Source: Opitutia bacterium UBA7350 | GTDB lineage: Bacteria > Verrucomicrobiota > Verrucomicrobiia > Opitutales > Coraliomargaritaceae | Assembly: GCA_949524905.1 (NCBI GenBank) | Contig: CATINC010000015.1 | Location: forward strand, 1-64,000 | Direction of reading: 5' to 3' | DNA: 64,000 nt | Shown here: positions 14,555 to 36,450 of the stretch, in pieces | Layout of the letters: every line of letters begins with the position of its first letter | Numbering within the stretch: position 1 is the first letter of the stretch | Program-made: the position numbers and the translations under genes | The notes under the pieces: generated by a model | Seen by the model: only the letters and a program-made list of their open reading frames with translations | The model's database searches: none | What the model was told of the DNA's origin: nothing

Positions 14555-16012
14555 TTATGCAGTGCGAAGGTCGTATAGATATTTATCTAATTTATTTGCC
14601 GTGATAACTCCGTAATTCATGGAACCAAGCCACCCCGACATAATAATTCCTACCGATCCAGCATGGTAAAGCCCCGCGATTTGATTCGGCAAATCCATAG
14701 AAACTTTTAGACCTTCAAACTTTGTCCCAAAAGAGGTTCCCTGCATTGATTTAGTGTAATGATTAACCGTGCGTGGCGTTGCAGCCTCTAGGTGATCAAT
14801 CTTATCCCGAACTCCCGGAATAAAACGTTCTAGGCTTTCTACGCACTCGTCGCATAATCGTTGCTTCTCTTCTTGGTATGCTTCTTCGCTAAGAGCTGCC
14901 CATTCATCCCATCGAGCATTTAGGGAAGCCACCACAATGTAGCGAGGTTCTTTCAAATGCGGTCGTGTCTCAGGATAGTAAATTGAAAAGGTATGACTTG
15001 TAGTTTTAATAGAAGTCAGCTCGGCGATTGAATATTCTGGTGCCGCTGAAGTAAAAACAAGATCTCCGATATTGGGGATGGTCTCACCCTTGCGAATCCC
15101 CATGTAAACTTGGCAAGAACTGGTATTATTTCGAATTGCTTTAGCTTCAGATAAAAATTCTGAAGAAAAGTTATCTTCTCCCACAAGGTGCTCGATTGTG
15201 TTGCGAATATTAGCATTGGAAAGTACCGCTTGAGTGGCAATGTGACGTGTTGGGAAGCGTTCCTCGCCTGTATTTTGACTGCGTGCATGAATCCCAACAA
15301 CCTTGCCCTCCGATACTTCAATTTTTTCAACGAGCGCGCATTTGCGTACTTCGCAACCATTCGCCTTTAGCTCTGCCACCATTTTTTTTATAAGAGTATC
15401 CGTTCCTCCTTGGAAGGTGAAAACTCCTTTGCTCATAAAGTTTGAAAAAACAATCCCATAAGTGATCGCTGGATCATTCAGGTGTGAACCATTGGCATAC
15501 GAAATCGGTTCCATTAAGAGACGGTGCACGTCGCTACGACCAGGGAAAAATTCCTCAAACATCTCTCTGGTGGTCTGGGTATTGTCATCGTAGAAATTCA
15601 TTTGACCCAGATGGGCGTAAAAAGCCTCTACCTTCTGGCGGTCTATCTTAAAATCCTTCACTAAGATTTTTGTAAAATCTTCTCGATCAAAGGTAGTCCA
15701 GACATCCATTTGAGGATTAATGAAACGTACATCCTTTAATTGATGGATGGAATCAGCAATCTCACGGGTCCAATATTTCCGACAAGACTTCACCATCCCG
15801 TATGGAAAGCCATGCAGTGAGATGTCAAAAATATGCCCGCCTGGGCGCTTAAACCATGTTGCCAAGCCTCCAAATTGATAATGATGCTCCAAGAGCAAAA
15901 CCTTATGCCCGTTTTTTGCGAGGTAGTTAGCACTCGTTAACCCGCCCAAACCAGAACCCACTATGACTACATCATAGTTGTCATCAATACCTGCTAACCA
16001 ATCCTTTGCCAT
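14555..16012 (-). CDS. FAD-dependent oxidoreductase of the phytoene desaturase/CrtISO-like family
   Basis: A 485-residue flavoprotein. The N-terminal dinucleotide motif is [19 protein letters not shown], followed by the FAD ribose Glu in [11 protein letters not shown]. The middle has the [18 protein letters not shown] segment that this superfamily uses before the substrate pocket. The C-terminus has [20 protein letters not shown], corresponding to the second FAD motif (G-x-x-x-A-G...G-x-x-G). Size and order match phytoene desaturases, carotene isomerases and retinol saturases. No other carotenoid gene is nearby, so the substrate cannot be named. It stands alone between the tRNA scar and an unknown secreted gene. 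Confidence 0.8.
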
Positions 16013-29833: not shown

Positions 29834-30733
29834 TTACACACTATTAATTTTCAAGAATTTTGCGACTGCATCCCGCACATTACGCCCACCATCCTCTAAA
29901 AGGTAATGCCCACAGTCATTGTAGACCGTGGTTTCCGCCTGAGGAAAGATGACTTGCCAGCGCCTCAGAAATTGCTTGTTAAAGCAGAAATCCCGTTTAC
30001 CCCAAAGCAAACGCACTGGCTTATCCTTTAAATGCTCCAAGCTAGCTTCAACATCCACAAGTGCCTGGTAACTCCTATGAGTCGATCTCAAAGGTATATC
30101 TTTCACAAAATTCCACACAGCTACGCGATCAGCCCAATTGCGGTAAGGCCAAAGGTACCCCTGTCGCACTTTGGGTGAAAGTGGTGAGCGCACCGCCATA
30201 TTTGCGGCAAGCCTGGCAAAAGTATTCAGGCCACGAATCATAAATTCTCCCAGTACCGGAATCTTTACAGACGCGATTCGCAGAGGGATTCTTTTGGAAC
30301 AAAAGGCTGCCGTATTTAAAAGCACTAACTTTTCTAGTTGATCCGGAGCACGACCAGCTAGACCACAACCAATCGCACCCCCCCAATCATGCAAAACCAA
30401 GCTATAGGCTTTGATTCCCAAATGTTCTAGCAAAGCAGAGACATCAGTAATACGCTGATCCAAAGTATAATTATAATCCTGCGGTTTATCGGATAAGCCG
30501 CAACCGATGTGGTCCGGCGCAATACAACGATAGCCGGCACTATTCAAACTCACCACTAAATCGCGGTAAAAAAAAGACCAAGTCGGGTTGCCGTGTAAGA
30601 GCACGACCACTGGCCCTTGCCCTTCATCCAAATAGTGCATTTTAATACCTTCTCCCAATTGCAACAAATTCCCTGAAAAAGGGTATTCGAATCGGACTTC
30701 AGGCGGTAACAGTGCCGCTCGCGATAAACTCAT
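29834..30733 (-). CDS. oleB: OleB-like alpha/beta hydrolase (beta-lactone decarboxylase)
   Basis: A 299-residue haloalkane-dehalogenase-like hydrolase. The nucleophile elbow is LVLHDWGGAIG (Asp116), an Asp rather than Ser. LLHGNPTWSFFYRDL supplies the oxyanion and halide-type Trp, and YNDCGHYLLED has the catalytic His. In the ole pathway OleB turns the beta-lactone made by OleC into a long-chain olefin. The start ATG at 30733 overlaps the oleA stop as ATGA, so the two are translationally coupled. Membership rests on this pairing as much as on sequence; a true haloalkane dehalogenase is possible but less likely. Confidence 0.85.
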   Translation of the reverse strand: MSLSRAALLPPEVRFEYPFSGNLLQLGEGIKMHYLDEGQGPVVVLLHGNPTWSFFYRDLVVSLNSAGYRCIAPDHIGCGLSDKPQDYNYTLDQRITDVSALLEHLGIKAYSLVLHDWGGAIGCGLAGRAPDQLEKLVLLNTAAFCSKRIPLRIASVKIPVLGEFMIRGLNTFARLAANMAVRSPLSPKVRQGYLWPYRNWADRVAVWNFVKDIPLRSTHRSYQALVDVEASLEHLKDKPVRLLWGKRDFCFNKQFLRRWQVIFPQAETTVYNDCGHYLLEDGGRNVRDAVAKFLKINSV

Positions 30734-31767
30734 AACTCTGGCCACTCCAAAGCCAACATCAAACTACTTAAGCCACTTCCGATCCCCAGGAGCGCTGCCT
30801 TCTGACCCGGTGCGTAGGCAGCCGCCTCTATCGCGCTTGCTAATGTCAATGGACATGATACCGAGCCAATATTTCCTAGATTTTCAAAGGTTGAAAAATC
30901 TTTCTCGATCTCCAAGCCAAGTGCTTCAAACAAAGCCCGAGTGTGCGCCGATCCCACTTGATGCGTGATAACACTATCGGGAGTGCTAGCACTCCAGCCG
31001 CTTACCTTGCAAAAACGCGCCCAGGCAGATTTTGCCACTTTAATGCCAGCTATCAGCAATTCCTCTGAGTCTGTCAGCATTGCTAAGCCGTCCCCAGAGC
31101 TATCGCCTTCGCATAGCCCGCTGTGACTGGTATCCGTTGCCACCGCAGCCGCAGACAAACGAGGACGATCTGGCGCAAGATCTGAGCGACACAAAACTGC
31201 CCCGACCGCTCCGGCTCCGATCGTTAAATTAGCAAAATACGGCTTAATACTCTTTCGTGTCTGTTCCGGTTTTAATAACTCTGACAGGGTATGCTCCATC
31301 AAGGGGCGCCCATTTTCACCTGAGCATATGAGCGCACGTTCAATTTGACCGCTCTCAATCATACCGGCGGCAATGACCATAGCATTTAAAAAACCAAGGC
31401 AAGCATTGGAGAGGTCAAATATTTGCGTATTACCATCTAAACCCAGCGAATGATGCACATAGGAGGCTGTCGCTGGCTCAAGTCGATCACGACACACCGC
31501 AGCATGTACCAATAAATTCATCTCGCCCCGCTTGAAACGTGTTTGCTTAAGCACGGCCTCCCCCGCCAAAGCGGATGCTTCAGACGCCCGAAAATCTATA
31601 GGCCAGAAACGTCGCTCGCGTATCCCCGTCATTAATTCCAACCGTCCCTTTGGTAACCCGAGGCGTTCATACAATGCTGCCAAACGTATCTCTATATCCA
31701 ATGATGTCCAAATCGCTTCAGGCAAGACATAGGCCATCGATTCAATTGCTACTTGAGTAAAACGCAT
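30730..31767 (-). CDS. oleA: OleA-like thiolase, head-to-head acyl-CoA condensing enzyme
   Basis: A KAS III-like thiolase fold protein of 345 residues. The catalytic Cys is C123 in LSNACLGFLNAM. A Glu (E97) lies 26 residues before it, the same spacing as E117 and C143 of the Xanthomonas OleA, the Glu that sets OleA apart from FabH. The His in ITHQVGSAHT and the Asn in ENLGNIGSVS are 30 residues apart, as H285/N315. OleA joins two fatty acyl-CoAs into a beta-keto acid. oleC and oleD are absent from the neighbourhood. The upstream genes are the fatty-acid genes fabZ and fabI. Confidence 0.88.
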   Translation of the reverse strand: MRFTQVAIESMAYVLPEAIWTSLDIEIRLAALYERLGLPKGRLELMTGIRERRFWPIDFRASEASALAGEAVLKQTRFKRGEMNLLVHAAVCRDRLEPATASYVHHSLGLDGNTQIFDLSNACLGFLNAMVIAAGMIESGQIERALICSGENGRPLMEHTLSELLKPEQTRKSIKPYFANLTIGAGAVGAVLCRSDLAPDRPRLSAAAVATDTSHSGLCEGDSSGDGLAMLTDSEELLIAGIKVAKSAWARFCKVSGWSASTPDSVITHQVGSAHTRALFEALGLEIEKDFSTFENLGNIGSVSCPLTLASAIEAAAYAPGQKAALLGIGSGLSSLMLALEWPEL

Positions 31768-31835: not shown

Positions 31836-32639
31836 TTACTCTGGGCGCATCGCGAGGCGCACCAAGTCCTTATCAAAGTAGTTACGGTCCATGCCAGCAT
31901 TAACAACGAGCCCTTGTCCATTGATACCACTGGAGGCAGGGCTGAGCAAGAAAGTTGCCGCTTGAGCTACCTCGGCGGTAGTTAGATTAGCTTTTCGAAA
32001 TGTCAGCTTTTCAGCATAGAGGTAACTTTCTAAGTAGCCGGGTATCCCTGCAGAAGCACTGGTTTTAAGTGGCCCAGCATTCACAGTATTGAAACGCACA
32101 CGCGTATCGGCACTAAAGGATTTAGCGAGATTATGACTTGCAGTTTCGAGGGTCGCCTTAATAGGCGCCATATAACCGTAATTCTCTGCCGTTACATCGG
32201 TTGAGGAAATTCCGATCGAGACGACCGAAGCTTCGTTGTTGAGATGAGATTTAAATGCATTTGCCACTTCTACCAAAGAGAAGGCAGAAATCGCGGTCGC
32301 TTGTAGAAAGTCTTGGCGCGATGTCTCGTGAAAGGGTTTAAAGCCTTCAGAATAATTCGCAAAGGCAATAGAGTGCAGGATGCCGTCAAGCGGGCCGTGC
32401 TCCCGCCCAACTGCCTCCGCTAATGTTTTAATTTGTTCAGAAAACTCCACATCACAGATATAGGCTTTTCGGGCGCCTAATAATTTCTCAAGGCTTTCCA
32501 AGCGCTTTTTTGAACGCACGCTATGAATGACCTCGGCGCCTTCTGCTTCCAGTGCTTGCGTAACTGCCCAAGCAACACTCTTGCGGTTAGCCACCCCCAT
32601 TACGAGGAAACGCTTGCTCTCTAAATTCAGAAAACTCAT
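31836..32639 (-). CDS. fabI: Enoyl-ACP reductase (NADH), FabI type
   Basis: A short-chain dehydrogenase of 267 residues, the last step of fatty-acid elongation. The N-terminal dinucleotide site is [15 protein letters not shown], the atypical FabI version. The active-site pair is Y154-x6-K161 in [14 protein letters not shown], the FabI spacing rather than the Y-x3-K of normal SDRs. [20 protein letters not shown] is the usual ending. The ATG overlaps the fabZ stop by 4 bases (ATGA), so fabZ-fabI is a unit, and oleA follows 68 bases downstream. Confidence 0.93.
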
Positions 32640-33085
32640 GTCGTTACCTCCGGTTCCAGCATCGCCAATGCAAATTCAATCGTAAGGGCAGGCTTCCCGT
32701 CTTTAAGGACCTTCCCCTTTAGGAAGAAAAATTTACTCAGGGTCTCAAGCATAGTGACTTCAATGGTGACCACATCGCCGGGCTTCACCATTTTTTTGAA
32801 ACGGGCATCATGAATACGTGAAAGTACCGGAGTAACATCATTCAATGAACGCCCTTCTTTTTCAATTTGTTTGGCAAGATAAATTGCGCCCGTTTGAAAG
32901 CACGCTTCGCAGAGCAAAACGCCCGGCATGATCGGGTTACCGGGATAATGTCCTTCAAACTGTGGCTCCTCTGAGCGAATGGTGCGTGTGCACGTGGCAC
33001 CATCATCATGAATCGATTCAATGGTATCTATAAATAAAAATGGCGGGCGGTGAGGGATACTGCGTAGAATTTCGTCCATATCCAT
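32636..33085 (-). CDS. fabZ: 3-hydroxyacyl-ACP dehydratase, FabZ type
   Basis: A hot-dog-fold dehydratase of 149 residues that removes water from 3-hydroxyacyl-ACP. [11 protein letters not shown] and [20 protein letters not shown] hold the active-site His46 and Glu60. [15 protein letters not shown] is the conserved RFR-K...PGD region. I chose ATG 33085; an in-frame TTG two codons upstream is also open. It is the first gene of a fabZ-fabI-oleA-oleB run and is separated by 45 bases from the renalase-like gene. Confidence 0.93.
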
Positions 33086-33130
33086 AGTCAATGGCGTAAT
33101 GCGTAGATTGCACGAAAGAAATTAATTCTC

Positions 33131-34114
33131 TTAAGATAAAGCTTGGGGCGAGTTCAAAGCCATTGCGGCAGCTATGCCAGACAAGGCAGCACCTTCAACG
33201 CGCGGACCTCCAAAGGCATCACCAGCTAAAGTTAAATTTAAGCCGGAATTTCGAAGATACCGCTCTTTGTAAGGATTTAAAGGCAATGTAAAGCCCCAGC
33301 GGTGGCAGGTGAATTTAACGACTCCTTCACCCAACCAAGGCTTAGCAGCCTCTAACATCAAGCCACCCCGCTCCTCATCCGTGGTATCCCAATGTCGAGC
33401 AGCAAAGGACGCACCTGCATGCAATGTAAGCGCAGGTTCCTTTGAAATCCCCTTCTGTTGATTATCCGCAATCCACACCAGCGCTTCTTCCTTAAGTTTC
33501 AAAAATCCAGGTGAGGGTACTGCACTCGGCCCCTTGAGTTGCACCAGGGTTGCAAGTCCTTTCTCGTATCGGACCGCTCTTAAAGCGGCACGAGTATCCT
33601 TTGTTGCCCAATCAGTGCCACTGGTTTCAAGTAAAGTCCAAGCCTGTGGAAGCGGTAGACTTACAACTAACTCTCGCCCAATAAAACGATCTCCAGCAAG
33701 ACTTTCAGCGACCCAATTCCCATCTGTGCGTTGCAACGAGCAGACTTGGGTTGAACAAACAACTTCGAGTTTACGGGCTAGATATTTCGGGATAGCATTC
33801 ATACCGTCAACACCACAATAACGTGGATAACCAGTTGGATTATTATCCCATGGCGCCTGACGAAACCACTCTCGAGCCACCCCCTTTCTTAGCATCTCAT
33901 CTACCCATGCCTGCCAGCGCGGATGGCGTACCGTGAAAAACTGTGCTCCATGATCCATTCGTGTTGACCCCATCCCTCGACGAGTTGTCATTCGACCTCC
34001 AGGTCCTCGGCCCTTGTCCAAAACGAGCACCCGCATGCCGGCTTTTTGGAGCTCTGCGGCACACAATAAACCTGAAATCCCCGCTCCGATAATTAAGGCG
34101 TCTTTTATTTCCAT
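33131..34114 (-). CDS. Renalase-like FAD-dependent oxidoreductase
   Basis: A 327-residue flavoprotein of the amine-oxidase/renalase group. The FAD site is ALIIGAGISGLLCAAELQKA with the ribose Glu/Asp in LVLDKGRGPGGRM, followed by the DHGAQFF segment typical of this group. The C-terminus LAGDAFGGPRVEGAALSG closes the FAD site. The electron donor and substrate are unknown. It starts 3 bases after the epimerase gene and forms a run with photolyase, an arrangement seen elsewhere in marine bacteria. Confidence 0.83.
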   Translation of the reverse strand: MEIKDALIIGAGISGLLCAAELQKAGMRVLVLDKGRGPGGRMTTRRGMGSTRMDHGAQFFTVRHPRWQAWVDEMLRKGVAREWFRQAPWDNNPTGYPRYCGVDGMNAIPKYLARKLEVVCSTQVCSLQRTDGNWVAESLAGDRFIGRELVVSLPLPQAWTLLETSGTDWATKDTRAALRAVRYEKGLATLVQLKGPSAVPSPGFLKLKEEALVWIADNQQKGISKEPALTLHAGASFAARHWDTTDEERGGLMLEAAKPWLGEGVVKFTCHRWGFTLPLNPYKERYLRNSGLNLTLAGDAFGGPRVEGAALSGIAAAMALNSPQALS

Positions 34115-34117
34115 ACC

Positions 34118-35005
34118 TTACTGCAAAATTGATCGAAAGGCATCGCGAATCTCTAGGTGTCTCCAAGTAAACCCTGAGACCTCCAAGGCTCTTGGTTTAA
34201 TATCCATATCCGAGAGAATTACTTCTTTTGCCATAACTCCAAAAGCCAGACGTAAGGCAAAAGCCGGTGTCGGCAACCACGTAGGGCGATTTAGAGCTGC
34301 GCCCAGTTCTTGAGCAAAGACGGTTCCGCTTACCGAGTTTGGAGCGACTGCATTGACGGGCCCCTTCAATGCCTTGTCTTCAACAGCACGTAGATAAACT
34401 GCGACGATATCCTCGATTGAAATCCAGCTCATTCTTTGCCGTCCATTCCCGATAGTCCCACCCAAACCAAGCCTGAAAGGTGGCAACATCTTTGCTAGAG
34501 CACCGCCTTTAGCACTCAAAACAATTCCCGTTCGCAGCATTACCAGCCGCCCGCCAGCCTTCGGCCAAGGTGACGCAGTCGCTTCCCAATCACGACAGAC
34601 CGAGGCAAGAAAACCTTTACCCAAAGGACTCTGCTCATCTTTCACTTCCGGATCTGCAAATCCGTAGTAATTAATACCAGATGCCATGATTAAATCTGGA
34701 CGCTCCTCTCGATCTAACATCGCATCCATCAATAATTTTGTACCCTTCACCCGACTATCACGAATTTCCCGCTTAGCGGAGCGGGTCCAGCGTTGGGCAA
34801 CATTCTCACCTGCCAGATGCACAACCGTATCGACTCCCTCGAGCACAGTCGTATCGATAAAACCAGTCGAAGGATCCCAACAACCTGGACCACTGCCTCG
34901 TGCGAGTCCTTGCACCCGATGCCCTTGAGCTTCTAATGCCTTACAAAGCTCTTGCCCAATCAAACCACTCGCTCCGGTCACCAAGATCTTTTTTTGCATC
35001 AGCAT
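34118..35005 (-). CDS. SDR39U1/YfcH-type (TIGR01777) epimerase
   Basis: A 295-residue extended short-chain dehydrogenase. The NAD(P) site is ILVTGASGLIGQELCKAL, VVHLAGENVAQRWT is the family signature, and ASGINYYGF holds the active Tyr region. A C-terminal DUF1731-like part ends with LEVSGFTWRHLEIRDAF. The ATG at 35005 shares one base with the photolyase stop (TGATG); a TTG at 35008 and ATG at 34999 are alternatives. The exact reaction is unknown for this family. Confidence 0.88.
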   Translation of the reverse strand: MLMQKKILVTGASGLIGQELCKALEAQGHRVQGLARGSGPGCWDPSTGFIDTTVLEGVDTVVHLAGENVAQRWTRSAKREIRDSRVKGTKLLMDAMLDREERPDLIMASGINYYGFADPEVKDEQSPLGKGFLASVCRDWEATASPWPKAGGRLVMLRTGIVLSAKGGALAKMLPPFRLGLGGTIGNGRQRMSWISIEDIVAVYLRAVEDKALKGPVNAVAPNSVSGTVFAQELGAALNRPTWLPTPAFALRLAFGVMAKEVILSDMDIKPRALEVSGFTWRHLEIRDAFRSILQ

Positions 35006-36450
35006 CAAATAGCTTCTACGGGATTTTTAAATTTATCAAAGGCAGACAGCGCACGCTCTCGTCCAGTCTGATGATCAATTATGGGATGCGGATAAGTTAC
35101 TCCCAGTTCAATGCCGGCAGCTTCTAGCACTGCCTCAGGTGCTTCCCAAGGAGTGTGAATATATTTGGCAGGTAATTTTCCTAATTCCGGCACATAACGC
35201 TTCACATAAGTACCGATTGGATCAAATTTTCCACCCTGAATCATAGGATTAAAAACTCGAAAATACGGCGCTGCATCAGCGCCACATCCACCGCTCCATT
35301 GCCAACCCAAGGTATTGCTTGCGATGTCCGCATCGACCAAAGTGTCCCAAAACCAAGCTGCCCCAGTTTTCCAATCCTGTAGCAATTGCTTAACTAACAA
35401 AGAAGCGACAATCATGCGGACACGATTATGCATCCAACCGGTAGCATACAATTCCCGCATTCCAGCATCTACAATGGGATAGCCCGTTTGCCCTTTTTTC
35501 CAGCATTTCAGTAAATCATCATCCGCCTCCCAAGGAAAATCTGCATACTGAGCCTGCAGAGGTTTTTCTGGGGTGTGGGGAAAATGAAAGAGAACATTGT
35601 AGGCAAATTCCCGCCAGTAGATTTCTTTTAGGTAAACAAAAGGACCTTTTTCTTTCAGGTTTGTGCGCGCTTCCAAGGCCGCCACAACCTGACGAGGTCC
35701 TATCAATCCACTTTGTAGATAGGGAGATAGTTTAGAGCTTCCCTCTATGCCAGGAATGTTACGGTCTTCGTTATAATGACTCACCGCTCCGTCCAAAAAA
35801 CGATTCAGTCGCTCATGTGCCCCGCTTTCACTGATGTCCCAGTCTTTAATCATATCGCGCCACCAATTCTGTGAAGGGAGTAAATTTAATTCTGCTAAAG
35901 CCTCACTTTCTAAGTTGGCATCCGACCAAAGAGCATTCTCAAGATTGACCTCTATAGGCGCAACTACTGGACGATCTTGTATCGATTTAAAATACGGCGA
36001 ATAGACTTTAAATGGTCCGCCTGATTTATTGGCAACCGTATGTGGCTCGTTTAGTAGAGCACTGTTAAAAGTTTCCACCTTTAAGCCCTCGGCTCGCAAC
36101 GCCAGCTTCAAGTCTGCGTCCAAGGATCGCAGCTTCGGTTCATAGCGACGATTCCAGAAAATTTGATTGGCACCAGTTGCATCAATGACCGTGTGCAAAA
36201 CTTCTGCCGTCGCTCCTACTTTTAAGATTATCCGCCCTCCATACTCCTGCAATTTCGTTTGCAAGCTCTTCAAGGCATGATGAAGCCATACTTTTGAAGC
36301 ACTGCCAGGTTGCCATTCACCGTAAGCAGTCTCATCCCAGATATATAAAACCACTAAAGAAGCGCCTGACTGCAGTCCCGCCTTGAGAGCTGCGTTATCC
36401 TGTACCCGCAAATCGTTCCGTAGCCATACTATACTGGTTTCATTTGACAT
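35005..36450 (-). CDS. phrB: Deoxyribodipyrimidine photolyase (class I CPD type)
   Basis: A 481-residue FAD photolyase that repairs UV-made cyclobutane dimers with blue light. The N-terminal antenna domain begins IVWLRNDLRVQDNAAL. The FAD domain has SSKLSPYLQSGLIGPRQV, WREFAYNVLFHFP, DAGMRELYATGWMHNRVRMI and the WQWSGGCGADAAPYFRVFNP segment characteristic of class I enzymes. Length is normal. It leads the run photolyase, epimerase, renalase-like gene, with 1-base and 3-base junctions. Confidence 0.95.
   Translation of the reverse strand: MSNETSIVWLRNDLRVQDNAALKAGLQSGASLVVLYIWDETAYGEWQPGSASKVWLHHALKSLQTKLQEYGGRIILKVGATAEVLHTVIDATGANQIFWNRRYEPKLRSLDADLKLALRAEGLKVETFNSALLNEPHTVANKSGGPFKVYSPYFKSIQDRPVVAPIEVNLENALWSDANLESEALAELNLLPSQNWWRDMIKDWDISESGAHERLNRFLDGAVSHYNEDRNIPGIEGSSKLSPYLQSGLIGPRQVVAALEARTNLKEKGPFVYLKEIYWREFAYNVLFHFPHTPEKPLQAQYADFPWEADDDLLKCWKKGQTGYPIVDAGMRELYATGWMHNRVRMIVASLLVKQLLQDWKTGAAWFWDTLVDADIASNTLGWQWSGGCGADAAPYFRVFNPMIQGGKFDPIGTYVKRYVPELGKLPAKYIHTPWEAPEAVLEAAGIELGVTYPHPIIDHQTGRERALSAFDKFKNPVEAI

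Follow-up and report, generated by a model that had tools for sequence, protein, structure and literature searches.

A predicted split Ole pathway in Opitutales-type Verrucomicrobiota, with oleA and oleB probably in a conserved operon with a dedicated type II acyl-chain module

The chemical scheme of head-to-head olefin biosynthesis by the Ole proteins has been laid out previously (PMC7158056, PMC6463001), and OleA can be recognized by the pattern EPxx[AS]x(14,18)DxxNACL, which holds the Glu base and the catalytic Cys (PMC7158056). In Shewanella and Geobacter, where pfa and ole genes are linked, a Pfa synthase is described as passing a polyunsaturated chain to OleA via an ACP (PMC6463001, PMC4882568). 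FASII clusters with phytoene-dehydrogenase-like genes have been described in Kuenenia and Desulfotalea psychrophila, the latter making C31:8 and C31:9 hydrocarbons with no known pathway to polyunsaturated chains (PMC2649909). One passage of PMC5673642 speaks of an 'operon (oleABCD)' in Opitutae genomes. A survey of the pathway accepted an oleA only if oleBCD lay no more than 5 kb away (PMC7158056), a rule by which split loci would be discarded.

The DNA analysed here, referred to as the window, is a stretch of 64,000 nucleotides from Opitutia bacterium UBA7350, in which fabZ, fabI, oleA and oleB lie consecutively on the minus strand, with fabZ first in the order of transcription. The first gene (fabZ', 32636-33091) encodes a FabZ-like dehydratase with His48 and Glu62, the second copy in the genome, and its stop overlaps the start of fabI' (31836-32639), which encodes a divergent FabI-like enoyl reductase that retains the YX6K motif (Tyr154, Lys161) and carries Ile144. 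After a gap of ~68 bases follows oleA (30730-31767), whose 345 aa product is predicted to be a head-to-head acyl-condensing thiolase with Glu97, Cys123, His269 and Asn299. The last gene, oleB (29834-30733), encodes an alpha/beta-hydrolase of the haloalkane-dehalogenase type, a predicted beta-lactone decarboxylase. It had been listed as 29834-30745 from a GTG; a more convincing start codon is the ATG at 30733-30731, overlapping the oleA TGA at 30732-30730. The gene positions agree with the initial annotation, which placed oleA-oleB directly after fabZ-fabI, and the ATGA overlap that it described can be read directly in the letters. Upstream, a gene for a small FAD/NAD-binding protein and two more genes (33131-36450, minus strand) reach fabZ' with tiny gaps; two of these three are presumably epimerase-like and photolyase-like, and the relatives L098 and L114 have the first two of the three.

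OleA scores 418 bits against the family model NF006720/PRK09258, over its cut-off of 285, and it fits the published pattern with E97-P98, a 16-residue spacer, D118 and an NACL motif that contains C123. Its best solved relatives, matched over the whole length with an E value of 5e-64, are the chains 3row and kin, labelled 3-oxoacyl-[ACP] synthase III, which we take to be the Xanthomonas campestris OleA; E97 and C123 align with them. OleB scores 99 bits against PF00561, and its best PDB matches are labelled alpha/beta fold hydrolase and haloalkane dehalogenase. Counted from the ATG, its residues N49, D116, W117, D248 and H276 are presumably the nucleophile and halide-site residues. These five are invariant in 88 of 88 aligned OleB sequences, and E97, C123, H269 and N299 in all 97 OleA sequences aligned, counts that, like those of 56 and 64 given below, were made after the removal of rows with less than 80% of the length of the window protein and that comprise non-independent sequences, as named loci and genomes can overlap (L041 and L099 look identical). 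No Ole-specific model is among the family-model matches of the window OleB; judged by its matches and residues, it is a protein of haloalkane-dehalogenase type encoded beside oleA. The initial identification of both proteins is upheld by these results.

The initial annotation had noted that oleC and oleD are missing from the 64 kb and could be elsewhere. Indeed, the window contains no match to the AMP-ligase model PF00501 or to 3Beta_HSD (PF01073). In the genome to which it belongs (1,671,262 bases in 17 contigs, listed as 99.97% complete), profile searches with the same two models gave four places for AMP-binding and seven for 3Beta_HSD, and this search of the complete genome located one oleC-oleD pair, side by side on contig C7, with oleAB on contig C15. 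The oleC gene (C7:386862-388517, minus strand; 9518-7860 in locus L015) encodes a protein that scores 611.7 bits against NF006754/PRK09274, over the cut-off of 478, and 479 and 434 bits against the olefin beta-lactone synthetase equivalog models NF045786 and NF045785, under both cut-offs (900 and 850); the names of these two models (Xan, Shew) point to Xanthomonas and Shewanella. For the product of the adjoining oleD (7887-6868 in L015), the best match of all models is the OleD model, 2-alkyl-3-oxoalkanoate reductase NF042422, with 408.9 bits, under the cut-off of 580. Given the pair on C7, all four olefin steps appear to be encoded and the predicted pathway is complete and split in two loci; no ketone-only route is needed. 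Beyond the oleA of the window, matches to OleA in this genome are KSIII-type genes with 22% identity, one of them ~55 kb from oleCD, and a second oleA, which the initial annotation had considered beside an oleCD pair as evidence against its proposal, was rejected on this ground. Contamination of the metagenome-assembled genome as the source of oleCD was also rejected, since oleC lies apart from oleA throughout the order and the genome is listed with 0 contamination. Elsewhere in this genome (G000:C5:13987-16583; loci L003 and L006), genes for an AMP-ligase, an SDR and a ketosynthase-like protein are neighbours and may form another small biosynthetic cluster.

The separation of oleAB from oleCD is general in the order. 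Among 132 genomes of Opitutales-type Verrucomicrobiota, oleA over cut-off is present in 103 and oleC in 99; both occur in 93, oleA only in 10, oleC only in 6 and neither in 23. A looser count gives 5 genomes with oleA and no strong oleC match of any kind, and 7 with the reverse; the Fisher test applied to the co-occurrence takes no account of relatedness among the genomes. In 202 sampled genomes of the phylum outside the order, the corresponding numbers are 27 with oleA, 25 with oleC and 22 with both. Distances refer to genomes with the two genes on the same contig, as contig breaks may hide neighbourhood elsewhere: oleA and oleC are 26 kb to 3.1 Mb apart in 12 of the 93 both-positive genomes of the order, and at least 447 kb apart in 3 of the 22 outside it. 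No oleC or oleD was found in the oleA flanks (up to 6 kb) of the 42 named loci from Verrucomicrobiota; as a positive control, oleA-B-C-D occur together in 16 of the 28 named loci from other phyla (70 named loci in all). The present data do not bear out an oleABCD operon in Opitutae as mentioned in PMC5673642. No description of split oleAB and oleCD, or of oleA beside fabZ-fabI or FAD-enzyme genes, was recognized in the literature searched, and we make no claim that the arrangement is unpublished. Surveys that demand oleBCD beside oleA miss split pathways, and they have probably underestimated how far olefin biosynthesis extends in Verrucomicrobiota. The 2010 abstract by Sukovich reportedly mentions that Verrucomicrobia yield olefins and that numerous species have a C31:9 nonaene.

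Two groups of loci differ from this picture in their gene content. In loci L168-L175 (genomes G202, G205, G277, G287, G299, G314, G331 and G337; family f52), all eight oleA genes are without a recognizable adjacent oleB, and five of the eight are without oleC over cut-off; they are candidates for true OleA-only ketone makers. In Planctomycetota (L137, L138, L142, L145-L147 and L149), OleA is 41-55% identical to that of the window, and oleB, oleC and oleD were not found in the stretches read around oleA.

The gene directly upstream of oleA is fabI' in 43 of the 59 order genomes examined, a non-random set made up of the 30 with the best scores, 9 taken from the phylum sample and 20 chosen across families; the 43 represent 15 of 20 families, and 9 of their gaps are negative. 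The remaining 16 have oleA with no adjacent fabI', and in the window's own family 5 of 7 genomes have oleAB with no fabZ'I' alongside. No fabI' was seen upstream in the oleA loci read outside the order. In L114, an ORF of 310 aa resembling a sigma-54 (NtrC-type) regulator (L114:4840-5769) lies between fabI' and oleA. FabI' matches the S. aureus FabI in the PDB with an E value of 8e-41, and its structure model (mean pLDDT 75.9) is predicted to have FabI as the nearest fold. Against FabI equivalog models it scores at most 171 bits, with cut-offs of 299-477. The catalytic Tyr and Lys of YX6K are kept in 64 of 64 sequences, and ten residues before the catalytic Tyr all 64 carry Ile (Ile144 in the window) where FabI has Tyr, a position that we take to be Tyr147 in S. 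aureus FabI and Tyr146 in the E. coli enzyme. InhA has Phe instead of Tyr at this upstream aromatic position. FabZ' keeps the catalytic His and Glu in 56 of 56 sequences. It scores 108.9 bits against NF000582, just under the cut-off of 113, and ~83.7-83.8 bits against PF07977, a family that the LpxC-FabZ fusion fits better with 113.5 bits.

Both activities have a second representative in the window's genome. LpxC-FabZ and fabZ' are the only two PF07977 matches in it, and a full-length FabV is present as a second enoyl reductase; no match to FabK was found. The comparison with genomes that have no ole genes comprises one nearly whole genome and one partial genome. The former, G110, is an order member in which neither oleA nor oleC passes its cut-off; it has FabV (59%), LpxC-FabZ (59%) and an OleB-like hydrolase (36%), and the 763,627 bases read, from a total of at least 778,592, yielded no fabI', fabZ', crtX1 or crtX2. 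In the latter (G034), 669,155 of ~1.0 Mb contained neither fabI' and fabZ' nor even FabV and LpxC-FabZ, so that it favours neither reading. That fabZ' and fabI' are ordinary fatty-acid genes appears doubtful in view of FabV, LpxC-FabZ, the Ile of FabI' and the gene content of G110. The coordinated supply by fatty-acid genes proposed in the initial annotation is thus retained in its linkage of the pair to oleA and revised in the nature of the pair, which is unlike the housekeeping genes and missing from G110.

A further component of the operon in relatives is crtX1, for an FAD-dependent phytoene-desaturase/carotenoid-isomerase-like protein. Of 29 loci, 20 carry crtX1 upstream of fabZ', the window being counted among the 9 without; it is within ~200 bases of fabZ' in 17 of the 20 and at 0.8-2.3 kb in L102, L104 and L216. 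The window copy (14555-16012, minus strand, 485 aa) is 84% identical to that of L111 and is detached from the operon, ~14 kb from oleB. Its flanks, a dgt-like gene and an ORF of ~213 aa, are those found in L144, where fabZ'-fabI'-oleA-oleB follow, and therefore the window arrangement looks like a broken-up form of the operon. Scores of 103, 101 and 81 bits against TIGR02730, TIGR02733 and TIGR02734 fall under the cut-offs of 587, 550 and 238 and place CrtX1 at superfamily level only; its structure model is poor (mean pLDDT 63.1), and a weak fold search suggests 4rep as nearest. In G049, a genome of the window's own family with oleCD and no oleA over cut-off (L205), crtX1 (86%) lies ~4.9 kb start-to-start from oleC.

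In some loci the series extends further upstream. L123 has ketosynthase-ACP-crtX2-crtX1-fabZ'-fabI'-oleA-oleB in one contiguous run, and the order in L129 is identical. The Bacteriovoracota loci L141 and L143 have ketosynthase-ACP-crtX2-oleA-oleB-oleC-oleD contiguously, and in other Verrucomicrobiota (L177, L178) ketosynthase-ACP-crtX2 stand divergently beside oleA. Cys-His-His is retained in the ketosynthase, as is the DSM serine in the ACP. The ketosynthase, ACP and crtX2 genes are seen in 2 or 3 of the 13 loci with at least 4,600 bases upstream, and neither the window nor the tested stretches of its genome yielded any of them. The OleA proteins of L141 and L143 fall inside the Opitutales OleA set (60-row tree; 19-row set, support 100/99), and this nested position suggests transfer between phyla.

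We consider it probable that the Ole pathway here is complete and split, and that the genes conserved with oleAB in one operon form a type II module making acyl chains specifically for OleA. OleA would join two acyl chains into a beta-keto acid, with Cys123 carrying the acyl group and Glu97 acting as the base. OleD, encoded on the other contig, would reduce the beta-keto acid, and OleC, encoded beside it, would close the beta-lactone, from which OleB would remove CO2 to leave an internal cis-olefin; the oleAB pair of the window would thus provide the first and last steps of the head-to-head pathway. The conserved operon of Opitutales comprises oleAB with crtX1, fabZ' and fabI' and, in some members, the ketosynthase, the ACP and a second FAD enzyme. 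This module may build, modify and probably desaturate chains for OleA, apart from a housekeeping route that would run through FabV and LpxC-FabZ.

The plainest alternative is that fabZ' and fabI' serve the ordinary housekeeping fatty-acid cycle and that oleAB merely shares their transcript, which would let chain supply and chain use increase in step. The two products are FabZ and FabI as judged by their fold and catalytic residues, fabI' is the sole FabI-like copy in the genome, and many bacteria carry both FabI and FabV. Nevertheless, the ole-less G110 manages with FabV and LpxC-FabZ, both members of the pair fall short of the family cut-offs of FabI and FabZ, the Tyr to Ile change is present in every FabI' aligned, and the linkage is to crtX1 and in some loci to a separate ketosynthase and ACP, which leaves this alternative unlikely, if still deserving some weight. 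It is more doubtful that FabZ' is a dehydratase/isomerase resembling FabN of Enterococcus, making monounsaturated membrane fatty acids while oleAB rides along. FabN of E. faecalis can stand in for fabA of E. coli, and the fabN operon is divergent from fabI (PMC11586512); since the window's genome has just two PF07977 matches, it has no separate FabA, which would fit such a function for FabZ'. Yet crtX1 and the extra ketosynthase and ACP beside oleA would go unexplained, as would the joint absence of the pair and of oleA and oleC from G110.

The initial annotation had also allowed that OleA and OleB make ketones or another product with no part played by OleC and OleD. When OleBCD are missing, the product of OleA decarboxylates spontaneously to a ketone (PMC6463001), and a few genomes of the order have oleA with no strong oleC match. 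The basis of the proposal disappears with the presence of oleC and oleD in the window's own genome, and the described substrate of OleB is a beta-lactone (PMC6463001); we give it hardly any credence here.

Returning to the dedicated module, gene content suggests that the chains fed to OleA are possibly polyunsaturated. A polyunsaturated product is entertained because the Pfa-OleA handover and the Desulfotalea clusters offer precedents. As a tentative extension, which we hold with less than even confidence, the genes of Opitutales and some Bacteriovoracota might constitute a dissociated type II polyene-acyl synthase for OleA, with the FAD enzymes setting the double bonds. Such a synthase would be a counterpart of Pfa ending in a polyunsaturated C31-type hydrocarbon, and would explain hydrocarbons of this type in bacteria that do not have Pfa. 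What is new here is the supply side of OleA: the apparently specialized FabZ and FabI copies encoded beside oleA, together with the phytoene-desaturase-like FAD enzymes, the ketosynthase and the ACP, provide a concrete lead on unusual hydrocarbons.

The oleABCD systems of Xanthomonas campestris and Micrococcus share with the present one the four protein families, the catalytic residues of OleA and OleB and the OleA pattern. In contrast, the four genes are not adjacent here; oleAB and oleCD form separate loci, and oleAB is linked to crtX1-fabZ'-fabI' rather than to oleCD. With the pfa-ole systems of Shewanella and Geobacter the common element would be a dedicated maker of acyl chains that feeds OleA through its own ACP, as the genes suggest in the present case. 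PfaC domains match PF07977, and no match that could represent Pfa-type FabA-like domains was found in the window's genome beyond LpxC-FabZ and fabZ'; instead of a multidomain Pfa synthase, separate type II proteins are encoded (ketosynthase, ACP, FabZ', FabI' and FAD enzymes). The FASII clusters of Kuenenia and Desulfotalea, likened here by their description, have in common fabF-like genes, FabZ and pfam01593 FAD enzymes. Unlike those clusters, the Opitutales operon contains oleA directly, and it makes the question raised in 2009 by Desulfotalea, how bacteria without Pfa come to have polyunsaturated hydrocarbons, a testable one.
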